Assembly (NCBI RefSeq): GCF_904846695.1
Contig: NZ_CAJHBR010000014.1
Span: 1-64,000 of the forward strand
Length of the DNA stretch: 64,000 nt
Source: Psychrobacter urativorans
GTDB lineage: Bacteria; Pseudomonadota; Gammaproteobacteria; Pseudomonadales; Moraxellaceae
Reading direction: 5' to 3'
Position 1 is the first letter of the stretch; every line of letters starts with the position of its first letter. Of this stretch, positions 14,493 to 55,624 are shown in pieces. The notes under the pieces are model-generated. The model saw only the letters and a list, made by a program, of their open reading frames with translations. It did not search any database and had not been told where the DNA came from. The translations under genes and the position numbers were made by a program.

Positions 14493-16044
14493 ATTTATTG
14501 AGTTGATGGATTCTATGAATTCTATGAATTCTGCGATGCAAGTTCACCACACGACGTAGAGGGGAGCGCTTCCACGAAGTGGTCGGTAAAATATCGCGAC
14601 ACGACGCGCTAGTGCCGGTATTAGCACGAAACGCTTCAGACCTTTGCGCCGCTTCTTCTGCAGATAGATTTTTGCCTTGGCGCCAGCCACCGTGCATATA
14701 TAGTCCTAACCCCATTAGGGCAGTGGCTACCATACCTGCTGGAAACGACCACCAAAGCGCATCCGTTCCCAGTAGGGGAGAAAGCCCGAAAGCGAATCCA
14801 AGACGCACGGGGTACATTGAAATGACCATAACGATCAGCGGCCAAATCACGTAGCCGTTCGCCCGCATGGTACCGAACAGCACCTGTGCTACGCCAAAGA
14901 ACAGATAGCCCCATGTCGCCACTATTTGGATATGGCGCCCGATCGGTATGGCTTTACTGTCACTGCCAAGAAAAAACCCAAGAAGGTTTTCATCAAAAAT
15001 AGTCAGCAGCACAATAATAAAACCTGTCAGTACTAAGTTAAAAATAAGCCCCCAGCGGGTGATGCCCGAAATCCTATTCCATTGATTAGCACCGATGTTC
15101 TGGGCAGCCATGGCACTAGCCGCGGCACTTAACGCCATAGCGGGCATCTGCACGTAGGTCCAAAGCTGTTGGGTGGCGCTATAAGCGGCTGTCGTCTGTA
15201 CACCTTCACGGTTTATCAACGACAGCATAGTCAACGCCGCTGAAGAGATGACGATCATCTGCAGGCCCATTGGCAAGCCTTTTGACACCATTGATTTCAT
15301 GATGTTTCGGTTAGCGCGCAAAAAGCGAAGCTCCGGCATCTTAAGTGCCAGTATAGAGCCACGAAAGTACATGGTGATGACCATGCCAATAAGCGCTAGG
15401 GTGTTTGCGACAGCGGTGGCAAAGGCTGCGCCAAATATGCCCCATTCGGGAAAGGGGCCTAATCCCAAAATGAGCGTTGGGGTCAAAATCAGGTCAATAA
15501 TGACCGATATAATGATAAACCAAAGCGGCGTCGTGGAATCGCCAGTACCACGCAATGCCATCATTATTAACGTAAACGTTAAAGTAGTAGGCATCGCAAT
15601 AAAGATCATCCGCATATAAGTCAGAGCAAGATCTACAGCACTAGGAGGCGTACCCAGCAGATCAAGTAGCATCGGCGCAAATATCCAGCCGCCAGCCGCC
15701 ACTATTATACTTATTGGAATAATACTACCTAGCGCTGTCCCCATGGTTCTCTTGACCATAGTATCGTCGCGGCTGCCCATTGCTTGACCAATCAAGATAG
15801 TGGATGCCATACCGAAACCAAAAACGAAGGAGATCAGTATAAACATCAATATATTGCCATTCGCCGTTGCCGCCAACGCTTCTTCACCTAAAAATCGACC
15901 TACCCAAATGGCATTGATCGATCCGTTTAACGACTGTAGGGCCGACGATCCCAGTGTTGGCAGTGCGAACAACAGCATGGTTTTAGGGATTGATCCTTTG
16001 GTAAGGTCACGCCGTTTGTCAGTGGGAGTACTAGGGTTACTCAA
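14482..16044 (-). CDS. MATE family multidrug/Na+ antiporter
   Basis: Inner-membrane exporter of the MATE family (NorM-like), expected to expel cationic drugs or metabolites in exchange for Na+ or H+. There are twelve hydrophobic segments in two similar halves. The N-terminal block ALPTLGSSALQSLNGSINAIWVGR is typical. At 520 residues it is about 50 longer than usual. The last ~25 residues are basic and include HRI repeated three times, encoded by a 9-bp tandem repeat, and look like read-through into noncoding DNA. The gene appears richer in GC than its neighbours and is bordered by a racemase relic, hinting at transfer or rearrangement. Confidence 0.88.
   Translation of the reverse strand: MSNPSTPTDKRRDLTKGSIPKTMLLFALPTLGSSALQSLNGSINAIWVGRFLGEEALAATANGNILMFILISFVFGFGMASTILIGQAMGSRDDTMVKRTMGTALGSIIPISIIVAAGGWIFAPMLLDLLGTPPSAVDLALTYMRMIFIAMPTTLTFTLIMMALRGTGDSTTPLWFIIISVIIDLILTPTLILGLGPFPEWGIFGAAFATAVANTLALIGMVITMYFRGSILALKMPELRFLRANRNIMKSMVSKGLPMGLQMIVISSAALTMLSLINREGVQTTAAYSATQQLWTYVQMPAMALSAAASAMAAQNIGANQWNRISGITRWGLIFNLVLTGFIIVLLTIFDENLLGFFLGSDSKAIPIGRHIQIVATWGYLFFGVAQVLFGTMRANGYVIWPLIVMVISMYPVRLGFAFGLSPLLGTDALWWSFPAGMVATALMGLGLYMHGGWRQGKNLSAEEAAQRSEAFRANTGTSASCRDILPTTSWKRSPLRRVVNLHRRIHRIHRIHQLNKSKR
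14508..14532. repeat. 9-bp tandem repeat in the MATE gene 3' end
   Basis: TTCTATGAA-type units repeat almost three times and encode the (HRI)3 tail of the MATE protein. Gain or loss of a unit keeps the reading frame. Confidence 0.7.
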
Positions 16045-16283: not shown

Positions 16284-17231
16284 ATGCTATTAACACGTTT
16301 AGCTCTCGCCACTATCTTTAGTGTGTCAGTCGTAGGTTGTACGACTGCTCCTAATACCCTCGCTGTTTCTACTACTCAAAAGCTCGTGCAGTACGAACGT
16401 AATAAATCAGATCTTGATATAAAGACCTTTACTTTAGCCTCAGGTGATAAATTAACTTACGCTGAGAATGTCAATGTGACTGGCGAGCCTTTACTACTGA
16501 TTCATGGCTTTGGCGGTAATAAAGACAACTTTACGCGCATAGCGAATCAATTAGACAGCTATCACCTTATTATTCCTGATTTACTCGGTTTTGGTAATTC
16601 TAGTAAGCCAATGGCGGCCGATTATCGCGCTGATGCTCAAGCTGAGCGTTTGCATGAGCTGTTGCAAGCCAAAGGTGTGGCTTCTAACATTCACGTCGCT
16701 GGTAACTCGATGGGCGGCGCGATCAGTGTGGCTTATGCTGCCAAGTATCCGCAAGATGTCAAGAGTCTATGGCTGATAGACAGCGCAGGGTTTTGGTCAG
16801 CAGGATTGCCAAAATCGCTTGAGGGCGCGACGCTTGAGAATAATCCGCTACTGATCACTAAGACAGAAGATATTTATGGCTTATATAATTTTGTTATGTA
16901 TAAGCCGCCCTATATACCAAAGTCGGTAAAAGCGGTGTTTGCACAAGAGAGAATCGCTAATAAAGAGCTAGATGCCAAAATCCTTGAGCAAATCGTCATG
17001 GATAATGTAGAGGAGCGCGCCAAAGTCATCGCTGAGTATGATATTCCAACGTTGGTGGTTTGGGGAGATAAGGATCGGGTTATCAAGCCTGAAACGACTG
17101 AGCTCATTAAAGATATTATCCCGCAAGCAGAGGTTATCATGATGCCAAATATTGGTCATGTGCCGATGATTGAGGCGGTAAAACAGACAGCTAGTGATTA
17201 TAAGAAGTTTCGGACGGGGTTAAATGAGTAG
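16284..17231 (+). CDS. Lipase-like alpha/beta hydrolase lipoprotein
   Basis: A 315-residue alpha/beta-fold hydrolase with a signal peptide ending in lipobox VVGC (Cys19), so probably an outer-membrane or periplasmic lipoprotein. The oxyanion region HGFGGNKDNF, nucleophile elbow GNSMGG (Ser142), acid in VVWGDKD and catalytic His in NIGHVP (His292) are all present. It resembles the Lip3-type lipases/esterases described from cold-adapted Moraxella and Psychrobacter, so short- or medium-chain ester hydrolysis is likely; the substrate is inferred. AGGAAG stands eight bases before the ATG. It is transcribed alone. Confidence 0.88.
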   Translation: MLLTRLALATIFSVSVVGCTTAPNTLAVSTTQKLVQYERNKSDLDIKTFTLASGDKLTYAENVNVTGEPLLLIHGFGGNKDNFTRIANQLDSYHLIIPDLLGFGNSSKPMAADYRADAQAERLHELLQAKGVASNIHVAGNSMGGAISVAYAAKYPQDVKSLWLIDSAGFWSAGLPKSLEGATLENNPLLITKTEDIYGLYNFVMYKPPYIPKSVKAVFAQERIANKELDAKILEQIVMDNVEERAKVIAEYDIPTLVVWGDKDRVIKPETTELIKDIIPQAEVIMMPNIGHVPMIEAVKQTASDYKKFRTGLNE

Positions 17232-17263
17232 CTATTCCCGCTTTACGCTACTATCTTAGCTGC

Positions 17264-17380
17264 CACTGTGGCGGTGACTAATAGGCAGTCGTGCTCCTGT
17301 TGCCTCGATATCCCGCCTGCCTAAGTCCCCGCAACACAGTGTCGAGCTAAGTATATCCGCTACAATCAGGGCTAAACCGC
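17264..17380. ncRNA. Structured hairpin element, copy 1
   Basis: Outer arms CACTGTG/CACAGTG (17264-17270, 17335-17341) enclose inner arms TAGGCAG/CTGCCTA (17282-17288, 17317-17323). The joints are of equal length (11 bases each), and the loop is 28 bases. GCGG and CCGC in the joints can pair as well. A related element at 53581-53698 keeps the same lengths and pairing although both stems differ in sequence. Conserved parts are GCGGT-ACTA, TCCTGT, CTCGATA, CCGCAA and a 24-base 3' block (17357-17380, 20 of 24 identical). This covariation indicates selection on a fold, as RNA or as single-stranded DNA. Strand and family are unknown. Confidence 0.55.
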
Positions 17381-17413
17381 ATCCCAAGTAACCCTTTGCT
17401 GTTTTCAACAGAG

Positions 17414-17489
17414 TTAACTACAGATTTGTAGTTAAAAGTTTTGACTATGGATTTGTAGTTAAGTATTATGACTATAACTTTGTAGTCAA
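17414..17489. promoter_or_regulatory. Three 22-bp palindromes at 27-bp spacing (operator or iteron array)
   Basis: Sites at 17414-17435, 17441-17462 and 17468-17489 share the approximate consensus TTgACTAyrgaTTTGTAGTtAA. Arms such as TTAACTAC/GTAGTTAA are separated by six bases. Starts are exactly 27 bp apart, and the last site ends 14 bp before the ATG of the first ATPase gene. A dimeric regulator binding cooperatively across the promoter is the simplest reading; replication-type iterons are the alternative. Confidence 0.7.
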
Positions 17490-17503
17490 CTAGGAATAGG
17501 AAG

Positions 17504-18694
17504 ATGAGCGCAGGGAATATAGCATATGGAAAGAATTATTTTCCTAGATTAGATGACGAAAGAAAAATTTGGCGAAAAATCGTTCAGGGTGACAACCTCC
17601 TACTGCTTGCTCCAAGACGTGTTGGTAAGTCCTCGCTTCTACATCATTTAAAGGATAATCCTATAGAGGGCTATGCCCTCATATATAACTATGCTCAGAC
17701 AAGCACAAGCGAAATAGAGTTTTATCAGAACTTACTGAAAGATGTTGTTGAATCAGATTTTGTTAAAAGATCTGCTAAATTATCTGCTAAATTTAAATCG
17801 TGGCTTCATAAACTTAAGTTAAATTTCTCTTTTGAGGCAAAGGGAGCCAAAGTAGAAGCTGGCATTAAAGAAGTTGAAATTAGTCATTCTGTAGAAAATG
17901 AAATAATAAGAAAAGTACTGCTTGATGGTCTAAGTGAAACTAATACAACACTAATTATTGCGATTGATGAGTTTCCTGATGCCTTGATTAATATCAATAA
18001 AATACATGGTGAGATAGCAGCGACTCAATTTTTATCAGGCATTAGGAGACTTTGCCAAAATGCTGAGCTTAACAAAAAGGTAAGATTTATTTTCACGGGT
18101 TCAATCGGTTTAGATACGGTGGTGAAAAAGCTTCAATTAAGTAATTTAATTAATGATCTAGTACATACGACTATAGAACCTTTATCAGATATAGAAGCTC
18201 AAAAGTTTATTGATTTTTACTTTGAGCAAAGCTCAAGTAGAGTCATAGACGTCTCATTAAAAAATATTATCATTGAGCAAGTAGGATGGAATATGCCTTA
18301 TTATCTTGCTTTAGTATGTGAAGAAATACTTGATAATTACGATGATGATCAATCGATAGTAGCTTCTGATGTTCTTAAGTGTATTGATCAGTTGTTTGCG
18401 CATGAAGCCAAAACAAATTTTTCTCATTGGCGAGAGCGATTAAAGAGACTGGAAAAAGAAGAAAGAAACTATGCAGAAGCTCTACTAACCTTAGTCTGTG
18501 ATAATGAGGAACCTTTATCTTATTCGAAAATAATGAACCTGAGTCAAAAAGAAGAGTATAGAGAGCTTGTGAATACAAACTATGTCTTGGACTGTCTTAA
18601 ACATGAAGGTTATCTATTTCATATAAGACCAGATGATACTTACTGGTTTACCTCTCCATTTTTAAAGCGTTGGTGGAATCTCTATGGACGATAA
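17504..18694 (+). CDS. P-loop ATPase (archaeal-ATPase/STAND-like), first gene of a two-ATPase pair
   Basis: A 396-residue cytoplasmic NTPase. Walker A is APRRVGKSS (residues 36-44), Walker B is LIIAIDEFP (Asp155-Glu156), and FTGSIGL near residue 200 fits the sensor-1 strand of archaeal-type STAND ATPases. Lys-rich residues 88-125 form an insertion after the second strand. The C-terminal 80 residues look like a winged helix ending in YWFTSPFLKRWW, as in that group. There is no recognisable effector domain. Its 3' end overlaps the next ATPase gene by 11 bases. The pair is AT-rich against its surroundings and sits behind an operator-like palindrome array. Function is unknown; anti-phage defence is possible by architecture only. 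Confidence 0.75.
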   Translation: MSAGNIAYGKNYFPRLDDERKIWRKIVQGDNLLLLAPRRVGKSSLLHHLKDNPIEGYALIYNYAQTSTSEIEFYQNLLKDVVESDFVKRSAKLSAKFKSWLHKLKLNFSFEAKGAKVEAGIKEVEISHSVENEIIRKVLLDGLSETNTTLIIAIDEFPDALININKIHGEIAATQFLSGIRRLCQNAELNKKVRFIFTGSIGLDTVVKKLQLSNLINDLVHTTIEPLSDIEAQKFIDFYFEQSSSRVIDVSLKNIIIEQVGWNMPYYLALVCEEILDNYDDDQSIVASDVLKCIDQLFAHEAKTNFSHWRERLKRLEKEERNYAEALLTLVCDNEEPLSYSKIMNLSQKEEYRELVNTNYVLDCLKHEGYLFHIRPDDTYWFTSPFLKRWWNLYGR

Positions 18695-20720
18695 TAAACA
18701 CAATACATCAGATAATTCAGTACTACTCTACAACACTCAGAATATAGATGCTGAAGTGCTTAAATCAGGATTCAGCATTCGTAAGAGAGAGTACGATCGC
18801 ATTTGGAAAGATATTCAGAATAGTGATATGACTCATCCAGAAACTCACTATCTTATTCAAGGTGTGCGCGGAGCAGGAAAGACCACCTTATTATCTCGCC
18901 TTGCTTACGAAGTGGCAGCAGATGAAAAGCTAAGTGAATGGTTAGTACCTATTCTACTTAATGAAGAAGAGTATGGCATATTATCACTATTTACTTTTTG
19001 GTTGCGTATTGCTGAAAAGTTAGCAGAGCAGAATCCTAATCTATACGCAGATCTATTTGAGCAAATCTCTAACTTAGACGATAGTGCTGAGGCAGCATGG
19101 GATTTGATACAAAATAGTTTAGACGAGAACAAGCAGAAAATTATTGTCTTCGTTGATAATTTAGGAGAGTTATTCAAAGATTTTGACGAGATTGAACATG
19201 CACAATTAAGAAAAGTATTAAGTCTACATTCTCAGATTCGTTTGGTTGGCGGTTCCAGTCAATTGCTTGAAGCGCATTTCGATGTTTCAGAACCTTTCTA
19301 TCAATTCTTTAAATTGGTTAATTTAAGACCAATTAATGAAATGGAAATGCATGAGCTATTACGCTCTTTAGCAAAGCAAACTAGTGAAGACGCCGTAAAT
19401 ACTATAGAAGAGGTTATTACTGAGCATCCTGAACGTATTGAAGCGGTTAGACGGCTCACTGATGGCGTACCTCGTACTATAGTATTACTTTTTCAGATTA
19501 TTATAGAAGGCGCGAAAGAGAGTAGCTATGCTTATCTAGAAGAAACTATTGATAAAACTACGCCTTTGTATAAACATCGAATGGATGATTTATCACGCCA
19601 ACAAAAAGCTATCGTACATGTGATAGCGATGAACTGGGATGCGATGAGTACTAAAGAAATCGCGGAACAAACTCGCTTGCCAAGTAAGACGGTATCAGCG
19701 CAGTTGGTTAAGCTACAACAGCAATGGATAGTGGATAAAATAGAAACCAATACCAAAAATCATCTGTATATTGTCAAAGAAAGGTTTTTTAATATTTGGT
19801 ATCTCATGCGCTATGGTAATCAAAAGGATAAGCGTCGTGTTTTGTGGCTGACAAGGTTTTTAGAGAGTTGGTATGATTATTACGAAATAAATAGCAACTT
19901 TTTTGAGCTAATGAAATCTATTGTTTTAAAGAAAAATATTCCACTCGACTATATTAATGCTCATTTAAGTAGCAGAAATATACCTAATTCTAGCAAAGAC
20001 ATGATTGTTAGTCTGCTAAAAGAAGAGGATATAGAAGAAGAAAATATTATAAAAGACTATTTAAGTATTTATCAAGAAGATAATCTAACGAAAGATTTTT
20101 TTGAGCTTTATGAAAACAAAAGAATTTTTCATTATATAGATTTACTAATGTCACAGAAAAAAAGTGAAAACATAAATAGTATTGTGATGGCTGCTCGTTT
20201 AAGCAAAGAGTTCAATATAGATAGTGCATTATACAACGACCTAATAATGCGAGCTAAAATTTTATCAGAAAAAGAAGATAGGCTTGTAGAATTGGGCTTT
20301 TTACTTTTCGTAAACGAAATTAACGATAAAAAATATATAATAGAAGATATTATTTCTCACTACGGAACAGAGGATAGTATAGAAAGTGTATTTGAAAAGT
20401 CTATATTGAAATTATTGCTACTTTGGTGTAACAAATTTGAGAAAGCTAAATTAAAAGAAGCTGATTTGTCTAGTTTAAAGCATATGGGTTTAATACAAGA
20501 CTATGTAATTTTACTTTTAGCTAAAGGACAAGTGGAAACAGCATATAATATTTTTTCAAATAGTGATTTCAGAAAAGAGTTCAAACCTATCTACTACGCT
20601 ACTGTATCTCTATTAAAAGACGAACGACAACAAGAGTATCTACGCATGGGATCAGAGCTACAAGGCACAGTAGATGAAATACTTCAGAAAGTTGAAGAAT
20701 ATCGTATTAAATATGATTAA
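18684..20720 (+). CDS. P-loop ATPase with winged helix and helical C-terminal region, second gene of the pair
   Basis: A 678-residue protein. Walker A is GVRGAGKT (residues 60-67), Walker B is IIVFVDNLGEL (Asp158), and a helical lid follows. A winged helix around residues 315-350 (MSTKEIAEQTRLPSKTVSAQL) is typical of DNA-binding or regulatory STAND-like ATPases. The remaining ~300 residues are predicted all-helical, rich in Lys/Glu/Ile, and could be TPR-like sensor repeats. Its start lies inside the 3' end of the first ATPase gene, so the two products are probably made together and may interact. I do not recognise a named system. The last kilobase is very AT-rich, a sign of transfer. Confidence 0.75.
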   Translation: MDDNKHNTSDNSVLLYNTQNIDAEVLKSGFSIRKREYDRIWKDIQNSDMTHPETHYLIQGVRGAGKTTLLSRLAYEVAADEKLSEWLVPILLNEEEYGILSLFTFWLRIAEKLAEQNPNLYADLFEQISNLDDSAEAAWDLIQNSLDENKQKIIVFVDNLGELFKDFDEIEHAQLRKVLSLHSQIRLVGGSSQLLEAHFDVSEPFYQFFKLVNLRPINEMEMHELLRSLAKQTSEDAVNTIEEVITEHPERIEAVRRLTDGVPRTIVLLFQIIIEGAKESSYAYLEETIDKTTPLYKHRMDDLSRQQKAIVHVIAMNWDAMSTKEIAEQTRLPSKTVSAQLVKLQQQWIVDKIETNTKNHLYIVKERFFNIWYLMRYGNQKDKRRVLWLTRFLESWYDYYEINSNFFELMKSIVLKKNIPLDYINAHLSSRNIPNSSKDMIVSLLKEEDIEEENIIKDYLSIYQEDNLTKDFFELYENKRIFHYIDLLMSQKKSENINSIVMAARLSKEFNIDSALYNDLIMRAKILSEKEDRLVELGFLLFVNEINDKKYIIEDIISHYGTEDSIESVFEKSILKLLLLWCNKFEKAKLKEADLSSLKHMGLIQDYVILLLAKGQVETAYNIFSNSDFRKEFKPIYYATVSLLKDERQQEYLRMGSELQGTVDEILQKVEEYRIKYD

Positions 20721-20768: not shown

Positions 20769-21326
20769 CTAACCCATAGGCGGCCAACGATGAGTCTTAT
20801 CGCCATCTATCCAATCTTGTACCCACGGCTCAGGTTGTTTATCCCAATCTGATCTACCTAAAGCTGCCAGCACACGCTCAGTGGCAATTACCTTACCGCC
20901 TTCTGTAACACCCGTTCGTAATAGCGCCGATGAGCAAGGTTGGCCCTTGACCCACATAGACTGCTCTACATAGATCCAACGCGCATCGAAGCCAACGATT
21001 TTGGTCTTCATAGTTACCTTTTGAAAGGCACGGATGCGCTTACGATATTGGATAGTACTGCCAGCCACTACTAAACCCCAACGCTGCTTGAGCAGCTGCT
21101 TACCAAGTCCAGTACGTACCGCAAAGTCAGTACGGCCCAGGTCATAAAGGGTCAACACTCGGCCGTTATTCATCTCTAAAAAATTATCGATATCGGTCAA
21201 ACGACAGCGTAGAGTAATCTCGCTAACGTCATCGAAGCTTAGGGTATTGCCTTTTTTGACTTGTACTATAGCGTTGATGATAGTGGAGGTATAACGAATA
21301 AAAGGATACATAACAGATCTCAACAA
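20769..21326 (-). CDS. Acyl-CoA thioesterase-like hot-dog protein (THEM6-like)
   Basis: A 185-residue hot-dog-fold protein of the 4HBT_2 type. The sequence RCRLTDIDNFLEMNNGRVLTLYDLGR matches the helix and first strands, where the catalytic acid of 4-hydroxybenzoyl-CoA-type thioesterases lies. WGLVVAGSTIQYRKRIRAF gives the following strands. It likely hydrolyses acyl-CoA or a related thioester in the cytoplasm; the substrate is unknown. It ends close to the ATPase pair on the opposite strand, with the YheT gene 65 bp upstream in the same direction. Confidence 0.78.
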   Translation of the reverse strand: MLRSVMYPFIRYTSTIINAIVQVKKGNTLSFDDVSEITLRCRLTDIDNFLEMNNGRVLTLYDLGRTDFAVRTGLGKQLLKQRWGLVVAGSTIQYRKRIRAFQKVTMKTKIVGFDARWIYVEQSMWVKGQPCSSALLRTGVTEGGKVIATERVLAALGRSDWDKQPEPWVQDWIDGDKTHRWPPMG

Positions 21327-53336: not shown

Positions 53337-53580
53337 GATTTTCTCAGATATTGGCTATAAAAAAGGAGGCGTGCTGAGCTCATTATCGTTAATAAACAAC
53401 CAGCTCACAAGTTATGACCGCTATTGTAACGATAAAAAGGCAATTTTGCAGCTACGTATTGAGAGAATTGCGTGGATAGAAGTTAATCTCGTCTAGCAGT
53501 GAGGTGAGTTAAACGCTGGCAGTATGCTTAGTTATAAGTTATGTAGCAGCTAATCGCGCCTTTTGCTTATATCTGCACCC
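53337..53580. other. Intergenic region right of the RsmC-like gene
   Basis: No gene or clean repeat. The last ~25 bases before 53581 weakly resemble the bases preceding hairpin element copy 1. Confidence 0.35.
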
Positions 53581-53698
53581 CTAGGCAGGGCGGTCACTAG
53601 TGGCTGATGGCATTCCTGTATTCTCGATACTACCCTCAGCCAAGGGTCCGCAACCTGCCTAGAGGCACAGGATACCGCTGCAGTCACGGCTAAAACGC
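53581..53698. ncRNA. Structured hairpin element, copy 2
   Basis: Outer arms CTAGGCAGG/CCTGCCTAG (53581-53589, 53654-53662) and inner arms TGGCTGA/TCAGCCA (53601-53607, 53636-53642). Joints are 11 bases and the loop 28 bases, exactly as in copy 1 at 17264. Over the 64-base core the two copies are about 59% identical, yet only 2 of 7 positions agree in each inner arm while all pairs are kept. The 24-base 3' block is 53675-53698. A further stem ACCGCTGC/GCAGCGGT (53674-53681, 53707-53714), followed by a T-rich stretch, could terminate a rightward transcript. Confidence 0.55.
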
Positions 53699-54623: not shown

Positions 54624-55624
54624 CTAATTCAATTCTCGGTAAGCCTCGCACCCGCGCTCTTCTTGATTCTCACAAGCTTTACCAAATCACTTTATAGCCT
54701 TGGTCTTATCCTGGTCTAAACCCTTGCCATCATAGTACATTTTACCAAGCCTAAATTGCGCAATTCCTTCTTGCATACCAGCTGCTTCTGTATACCATTC
54801 AAACGCCTTCTTATAATTCTGCTTAACACCTCGACCCTCTTCATACATAGACCCGACAGTATATTGCGAAAATGTATTGCCTTGCTCGGCTGCCTTTTCG
54901 TACCATTGAAATGCTTTTTTGTCGTCTTTAAGCACACCTTTTCCTTCATCATAAATTATACCAAGAGCTTTTTGAGAATTAAGGTCGCCTTGCTCAGCAG
55001 CTTTTCGATACCATTCAACTGCTTGATTGAAATCTTGAGAAACGCCTAAACCGCTAGCGTACATCCAACCAACAAAATATTGAGAATTTTCATTACCTTG
55101 ATAACCTGCTCTCTTGAACCATATAAGTGCATTGGTATAACTTTGAGTGACACCTTCACCAAAATAATAAGCTAAACCGACGCTTTTTTGTGCATCACTA
55201 AAACCTTGGTTAGCTGCGCTCTGATACCATTTAAATGCTTTAGCCTTATCCTTAGATACACCTATACCTTTATCATATGCTTCTGCAAGTTTGTACTGAG
55301 CCTCTACAAGCCCCTGATTAGCTGCTTTCTCAAACCACTCAAATGCCTTTTTATCATCCCTAGGAATACCTTCATTATCAAAATCGTCTCCAACATAGTT
55401 GTCTAACCCTTCAAGCCTGTTAGCCATTCTAATCATATCTCGTCTATTACCCTGACCTTCATAATACATAGTTGCAAGACCAAGTTGAGCATAAGCATTA
55501 CCTTGCTTTGCTTTGCTAAAGATTCAACTGTTTGAAAGTATGTTGCCATAGAAGGAAGTGCAACTCCCAATGAGAACACTATGACTACAATTCTGTAAAA
55601 GGAAATATTTTTTAAAATTTTCAT
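54624..55624 (-). pseudogene. SEL1-repeat (TPR-like) exported protein, broken by frameshift and nonsense change
   Basis: The ATG at 55622-55624 starts a signal peptide (cleavage near LPSMA) and VESLAKQ. The frame is then lost in a repeated TTTGC tract (55502-55516). The continuing frame (55469 to 54687) holds about six SEL1 repeats of 36 residues, for example QGLVEAQYKLAEAYDKGIGV. It ends at a TGA (54687-54689) where homologues have Trp. Beyond it the frame continues FGKACENQEERGCEAYRELN, the usual SEL1 tail, to a TAG at 54624-54626. Removing one 5-base unit restores the first join exactly. SEL1 proteins are periplasmic or cytoplasmic scaffolds; this one is probably inactive or phase-off. Confidence 0.85.

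Follow-up and report, generated by a model that had tools for sequence, protein, structure and literature searches.

What are two hairpins with diverged arms and one common geometry doing at distant places of a single Psychrobacter urativorans contig? Both lie in the window, which here means the whole stretch of 64,000 nucleotides that was analyzed. On reading the two copies, the identical spacing described in the original prediction was confirmed. Copy 1 is ordered CACTGTG, 11 bases, TAGGCAG, a 28-base loop, CTGCCTA, 11 bases, and CACAGTG. Copy 2 keeps these distances with arms that differ yet still pair, i.e., the copies covary, and the motifs TCCTGT, CTCGATA, and CCGCAA are common to both. 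Folding z-scores of copies 1 and 2 were -3.6 and -4.5 for the minus strand and -3.7 and -2.2 for the plus strand, respectively. Other parts of the first description had to be revised. The 11-base joints, taken to be unpaired, pair together across the family as helix 6 (alignment columns 45-53 with 103-111), with 91.3% of cells paired. The hairpin had also been drawn too short, its outer stem being cut off from an element of about 168-175 bp. The complete copy 1 occupies 17228 to about 17396 and copy 2 occupies 53546 to about 53713, both with minus as the folded strand.

The element was assigned to a family with published and newly built models. The original prediction matched the hairpins to no known RNA class and named a match to a described family as evidence against itself; copy 1 proved to score above the Rfam gathering score of Flavo-1 (RF01705, 44.8 versus 42 bits), a motif without known function. 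This match covers 17230-17377 on the minus strand, and our covariance model R1, built from eight copies of the P. urativorans genome (G000), matches 17228-17394 with 167 bits. Copy 2 matches RF01705 at 53548-53695 (minus strand) with 31.1 bits, below the cut-off of 42, and R1 with 168 bits. Altogether, 4 of 12 regions searched exceeded the 42-bit gathering score. The RF01705 matches of both copies span 148 nt, of which about 72-80 nt at the apex lie outside the 76-position model. The element thus consists of the Flavo-1 outer stem and a second module holding the stems and loops first described. In copy 1, the left half of the outer stem (17230-17260) pairs with 17346-17373 according to the Rfam alignment, the columns of helices 1-4 having been mapped onto copy 1 by hand. 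Family boundaries agree with this extent. Conservation has a sharp onset at G[T/G]AGC and extends to about 25 bases past the start of GCTAAA. The two ends, G[TG]AGCYAATCC and GGCTAAACCGC, are alike in direct, not inverted, order.

Selection on a fold, as originally proposed, was strongly supported by covariation across the family. A structure-naive alignment was built from 69 of 74 elements of distinct loci, with copy 1 replacing its orthologue L089. In this alignment, 90.9% of 3430 cells pair, compared with 30.6-40.0% when the partners are slid, and both sides change in 33 of 50 pairs. The covariation score was 0.424, above every one of 500 shuffles (mean 0.145). Among the five measures, that of further pair types was unremarkable, with 206 of 500 shuffles reaching the observed value. 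Wobble pairs were used to compare the strands. For the minus-predicted structure, 32 plus-strand G-T cells stand against 142 A-C cells, which are wobble pairs on the minus strand; the plus-predicted structure gave 44 versus 130, and the 49 pairs that the two predictions share gave 32 versus 122. Counted by column on the minus-predicted structure, the ratio is 8 to 22 (p=0.016). The minus strand was also more stable in 67 of 69 elements with RNA parameters and in 69 of 69 with DNA parameters. Wobble and energies both point to the bottom strand as the folded strand.

Whether RNA or single-stranded DNA is folded had been left undecided. DNA is the better bet because of the low wobble content, the strand data, and published transcription data. 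Wobble is scarce, with 142 cells against 3087 Watson-Crick cells, and wobble this rare is unusual for RNA, which favors pairing in DNA. A free structured RNA gene with a minus-strand transcript would agree with the strand bias, with the Rfam entry, which types Flavo-1 as sRNA, and with minus-strand promoter-like sites to the right of the copies (17489-17462 and 53851-53822, 9 of 12 letters). Such sites are little above shuffled expectation, two being found where 0.6 and 1.1 in all are expected. In a F. psychrophilum transcriptome study (PMC9723704), Flavo-1 hits are reported to lie sense or antisense to transcribed regions, with many falling outside them. This inconsistent transcription, together with the scarcity of wobble, makes an RNA gene very improbable.

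Copy number and distribution place these two hairpins in a large family. Instead of the two copies first noted, the P. urativorans genome holds 16 matches at E<=1, one of them an opposite-strand echo, and 12 at >=58 bits. An Rfam family search of this whole genome missed both window copies and is unusable as a count. The further copies that were to be sought in related genomes were found with R1: at E<=0.001, 98 of 105 genus genomes were positive, with at least 458 matches when at most 27 candidates were scored per genome. A 26-base pattern taken from the 3' arm occurred in 52 stretches among 84,980 species, all in Psychrobacter or Flavobacteriales, the latter comprising Flavobacterium, Flavobacteriaceae MAGs, and one Chryseobacterium. 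Viral contigs gave no match to the exact 26-base pattern, and plasmids gave no blastn match to the element. Twenty Flavobacteriales stretches carry the same arms around an inner hairpin ranging from a few bases to longer, amid neighbors that look ordinary by inspection rather than by family search. Five Flavobacterium versions (L344, L342, L351, L379, and L380) have another conserved apex, roughly GAGCTYC...GTCGCT.

Several individual copies are modified. At L078:4042-4271, a palindromic insert of about 75 bp sits inside the apical loop, and a sequence resembling it precedes a truncated copy at G000:C1:197254. Directly past the elements of L246 and L225, an insert of about 58 bp ends in a second copy of the last ~26 element bases. 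In the sister genome G077, the place of own-genome copy C10 retains only the element's final ~40 bp, behind a terminator, which we read as a deletion.

The gene context of the element was evaluated for 97 of 116 model matches, after removal of weak matches, opposite-strand echoes, and one duplicate; L092 was left out as a repeat of L082. A co-directional gene precedes the element in 76 of these 97 cases and does not in 21 (p=1.7e-8, orthologous places unmerged). Copy 1 belongs to the larger group. An alpha/beta-hydrolase gene (named from sequence; 16284-17231, plus strand) lies directly before it, forming the conserved side of a hotspot, and its stop codon is overlapped by the plus-strand 5' end of the element. 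Two cargo genes on the plus strand follow. The first (17504-18694) encodes a weakly assigned AAA-type ATPase (Pfam AAA_22, E=2.6e-4, below cut-off) and gave no PADLOC match. The second (18684-20720) encodes a STAND/NACHT-like NTPase, with NPHP3_N at 30.6 bits (cut-off 24.8), NACHT at 25.8 bits (cut-off 26.7), and PADLOC mad8 at E=3.8e-6. A thioesterase-like gene on the minus strand (named from sequence; 20769-21326) forms the conserved right side, and homology with other genomes resumes at or near its stop codon. At the same hotspot, other genomes carry a RelA/SpoT-domain protein (L095), GmrSD (L084), a 591-aa protein with no PADLOC match (L129), or a remnant that we take to resemble the AbiJ N-terminus (L078).

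A promoter-like TTGACT-17-TATTAT lies between copy 1 and its cargo at 17441-17469 (plus strand), inside operator-like palindromes. Three palindromes of the form ACTAC-N6-GTAGT overlap it within 17414-17490 and are kept at the hydrolase hotspot in several species. The palindromic operator was considered as a part of the element and rejected: any hit within 300 bp was found downstream of 20 of 97 elements and upstream of 5 of 97. Repeated nearby hits were confined to the six hydrolase-locus elements, where the motif persists without the element. Promoter-like site and palindromes are a property of the locus, being also present in the elementless orthologues L234 and L236.

The position after a gene raises the question of transcription termination. 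According to this explanation, the element would insulate the core gene: transcripts entering from the cargo would fold the minus-strand hairpin and then expose a C/A-rich, G-poor, rut-like stretch for Rho. The prevalence of co-directional preceding genes is in line with this, as are an upstream tract poor in C (10% over its final 20 bases versus 20.8% in the window) and an intrinsic terminator at the element's place in 8 of 24 elementless hydrolase orthologues (L226, L228, L229, L234, L236, L237, L241, and L249). However, neither copy 1 nor copy 2 has an intrinsic terminator (hairpin and T run), 22 of 72 elements already have one before them in a simple scan, and sequence conservation of the internal loops exceeds the needs of a terminator. 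We regard an insulator or terminator as quite improbable.

Cargo beyond the 3' end of the element is variable and in many cases related to defense. Clustering sorted the 97 genes flanking the 5' end into 61 groups and the 150 genes flanking the 3' end, at most two per element, into 122. Proteins of 59 of the 61 5'-side clusters, two having run off the locus end, matched 23 PADLOC models, 17 of which were Cas1 models. From the 122 cluster representatives of the 3' side, 74 proteins were taken, almost exclusively first ORFs, and these matched 434 models. These totals are not counts of defense genes because one protein can match many models (one protein of L080 matches 111). Sampling the 3'-side proteins at fixed steps gave a PADLOC match for 6 of 10, and two hand-picked cargo sets gave 4 of 10 (two weak) and 9 of 10. 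Cargo families include CBASS cyclases, Gabija (GajA), Hachiman (HamB), Lamassu (LmuB), RT_VI, PD-T7-3, and type IIG, III, and IV restriction.

Element and cargo co-occur at the two hotspots where orthologous places were compared. Among the 30 best orthologues of the hydrolase locus, six have the element, all six with cargo or a remnant, whereas 3 of 23 loci without the element have cargo. A nitronate monooxygenase gene (named from sequence) lies within 250 bp in 20 of the 24 elementless orthologues. At glpK-patB, six of the 30 best loci have the element; all six carry cargo, and none has patB within 1.5 kb. Cargo was present in 1 of 23 glpK loci without the element, L388 being the one that differs, and in 22 of 24 elementless loci patB is adjacent or behind one 165-aa gene. 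Weak model matches lie beyond patB in two of the elementless loci (L390, 27.5 bits; L395, 21.2 bits). Fisher tests, which omit one contig end per hotspot (L230 and L384), gave p=0.0002 for the hydrolase locus and 0.000015 for glpK-patB, with kinship uncorrected.

The association does not extend to defense genes at large. An element lies near 1 of 40 GmrSD regions, with 0.56 expected, so the element as a general carrier of defense genes is unsupported. Two cases fell outside this control: the GmrSD gene of G097 (L084), flanked by elements in both directions, and, by eye among the matches listed, two paired GmrSD genes of G078 within 5 kb of elements. A search for CBASS cyclases found loci in four genomes, one of which (P. 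urativorans, G000) adjoins an element. Copies without evident cargo also occur, among others in genomes rich in copies, namely at leuA-ilvD in G032, in G075, and at ahpF in the own genome and G077. At leuA-ilvD, the exact insertion site was not found, as the flanks are too diverged.

Two loci have unusual arrangements. Along L086:1853-9827, Rhs-like (YD-repeat) modules and small following genes alternate with directly oriented elements, in the manner of a cassette array. At L068:5732-11341, two inverted elements surround proteins of 1244 and 412 aa, for which PADLOC gave no match and Pfam none above threshold; we consider them candidates for unknown defense genes.

Comparison between species at the same hotspot located the junctions. 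In 12 pairs from six hotspots (uvrA, glpK, PEPC, avtA-like, patB, and guaA), homology spans the preceding gene and the element and stops at offset 153-178, the end of the element. It resumes right at, or close to, the stop of the convergent gene that comes next, at uvrA about 50-60 bp beyond. Other pairs run past the element: the hydrolase locus to 237 (160-168 with L129), PEPC to 198-238, the patB side with L134 to 192-218, L080/L139 to 272-286, and copy 2 against its G077 orthologue to 267. No shared motif at the right end was seen by eye.

One cargo lies behind two dissimilar elements. Two cargo genes are shared by L117 (between glpK and patB) and L138 (between the patB side and an enoyl-CoA hydratase-like gene). 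The first 300 bp past the element are 85% identical, the upstream DNA is unrelated (53%), and the elements themselves are 72% alike, no more than background (71%). The L117 element instead resembles those of L079 and L085 at glpK (88-89%), and that of L138 resembles its patB-side counterparts in L134 and L067 (91-92%). From these alignments, L117/L138 would be the best evidence of cargo moving and joining at the element end, as a single clean case; the pattern could equally have arisen if two elements recombined through their conserved 3' ends. L141/L067 is a weaker similar case (downstream 91%, element 82%, upstream 58%). The element of L127 at glpK is 90% like L106 of the neighboring patB site and 72-81% like three others at glpK; element types are not strictly tied to place.

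The main rival explanation sees a mobile repeat that happens to occupy such places. A selfish REP/MITE-like repeat, moved by an unlinked single-strand transposase, would land after gene ends; cargo hotspots would offer room, and its retention there would be a by-product. The high copy number, the cargo-free copies in G032 and G075, the ordinary surroundings in Flavobacteriales, and the differing element types at the place of L127 speak for it. So does the 5' foot G[T/G]AG, as in REP elements, with column counts of G 67, T 33 or G 32, A 74, and G 72 of 74, taken per column and not jointly. The co-occurrence of element and cargo in orthologues and the same cargo behind dissimilar elements argue against it. 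A Y1 (RAYT/IS200) transposase as the mover was rejected, as no model match falls in any of 45 regions with a Y1-transposase gene, which comprise 25 out of 30 collected loci and 20 further stretches. A target duplication was not found either, few close empty sites being available. On balance, we rate the mobile repeat as rather unlikely.

Copy 2 is one of the 21 elements without a co-directional preceding gene, and the methyltransferase-like gene on its 5' side has its start turned toward the element. On its 3' side lie the minus-strand genes for KptA (RNA 2'-phosphotransferase, PF01885; 53813-54355) and a Sel1-repeat protein (PF08238, 7 stretches; 54687-55469). The sister genome G077 lacks the stretch with the KptA gene at the corresponding site. 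In L086, too, an element (at 15126) has a KptA-like gene (by sequence) behind it. Judged from gene content, the cargo of the window itself, behind copies 1 and 2, is only weakly defense-like.

Herein, we tentatively favor, as a quite possible role, a DNA-level hairpin that bounds, and perhaps docks, exchangeable cargo. The ~170 bp repeated DNA hairpin, related to Flavo-1 and folding on its bottom strand, would form the left border of a place of cargo exchange, mostly just after the stop codon of a gene. Short segments, often with anti-phage genes, would be exchanged there, joining at or near the 3' end of the element and extending as far as, or close to, the stop codon of the convergent gene that follows. 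The folded single strand may be recognized by a trans-acting enzyme and thereby serve as a docking or exchange site. No recombinase or transposase was found linked to the element: none of the 45 Y1 regions contains an element, and integron integrase occurs in 2 of 105 genomes, P. urativorans not being one of them. A more specific version, which we consider unlikely, is a non-integron cassette exchange system in which a trans enzyme would dock anti-phage cassettes at the folded bottom strand, the short Bacteroidota relatives being the cargo-free site. The counter-example of L127 lowers the weight of both the favored role and this more specific version; the mobile repeat gains weight, and the other two rivals gain slightly. 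If the element is a DNA hairpin bounding defense genes, the question of Flavo-1 function becomes testable, and the element could be used as a tag for defense genes that current models miss. Cargo proteins without a PADLOC or Pfam match are available at L068 (412 aa), L077 (1268 aa), and L145 (745 aa). For integrase-free exchange of defense genes, borders can be named here to within tens of bases.

Known systems share parts of these features. Integron attC sites are variable-stem hairpins that fold on the bottom strand and carry RYYYAAC/GTTRRRY core sites. The element shares with them the imperfect hairpin, variable stems, better folding of the bottom strand (69 of 69 elements with DNA parameters), and the position after a gene. 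Unlike attC, its ends lack an inverted RYYYAAC/GTTRRRY core pair, and elements are mostly single rather than parts of gene-plus-site cassettes. An integron was rejected as an explanation, the integrase TIGR02249 (E<=1e-30) being found in 2 of 105 genomes and not in G000. REP sequences of RAYT systems have a GTAG/GGAG tetranucleotide at the hairpin foot. They share with the element the multicopy intergenic hairpin and G[T/G]AG at the 5' foot, whereas the element is several times longer than a typical REP. ERIC-type long imperfect palindromes resemble it in size class, intergenic location, and covarying arms, a likeness by description and not by sequence; we know of no defense-cargo border as an ERIC feature. 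Flavo-1 has been on record as a function-less RNA motif since 2010, and to our knowledge no function has been assigned to it. The Psychrobacter element is homologous to Flavo-1: it lies on the same strand, and the outer arms match across the whole 76-position model. It differs in carrying, at the apex, a further module of 70-80 nt that has conserved loops of its own. Flavo-1 was described for Bacteroidetes and the present element belongs to Gammaproteobacteria, with the 26-base pattern in both groups, and the present element is tied to variable cargo.
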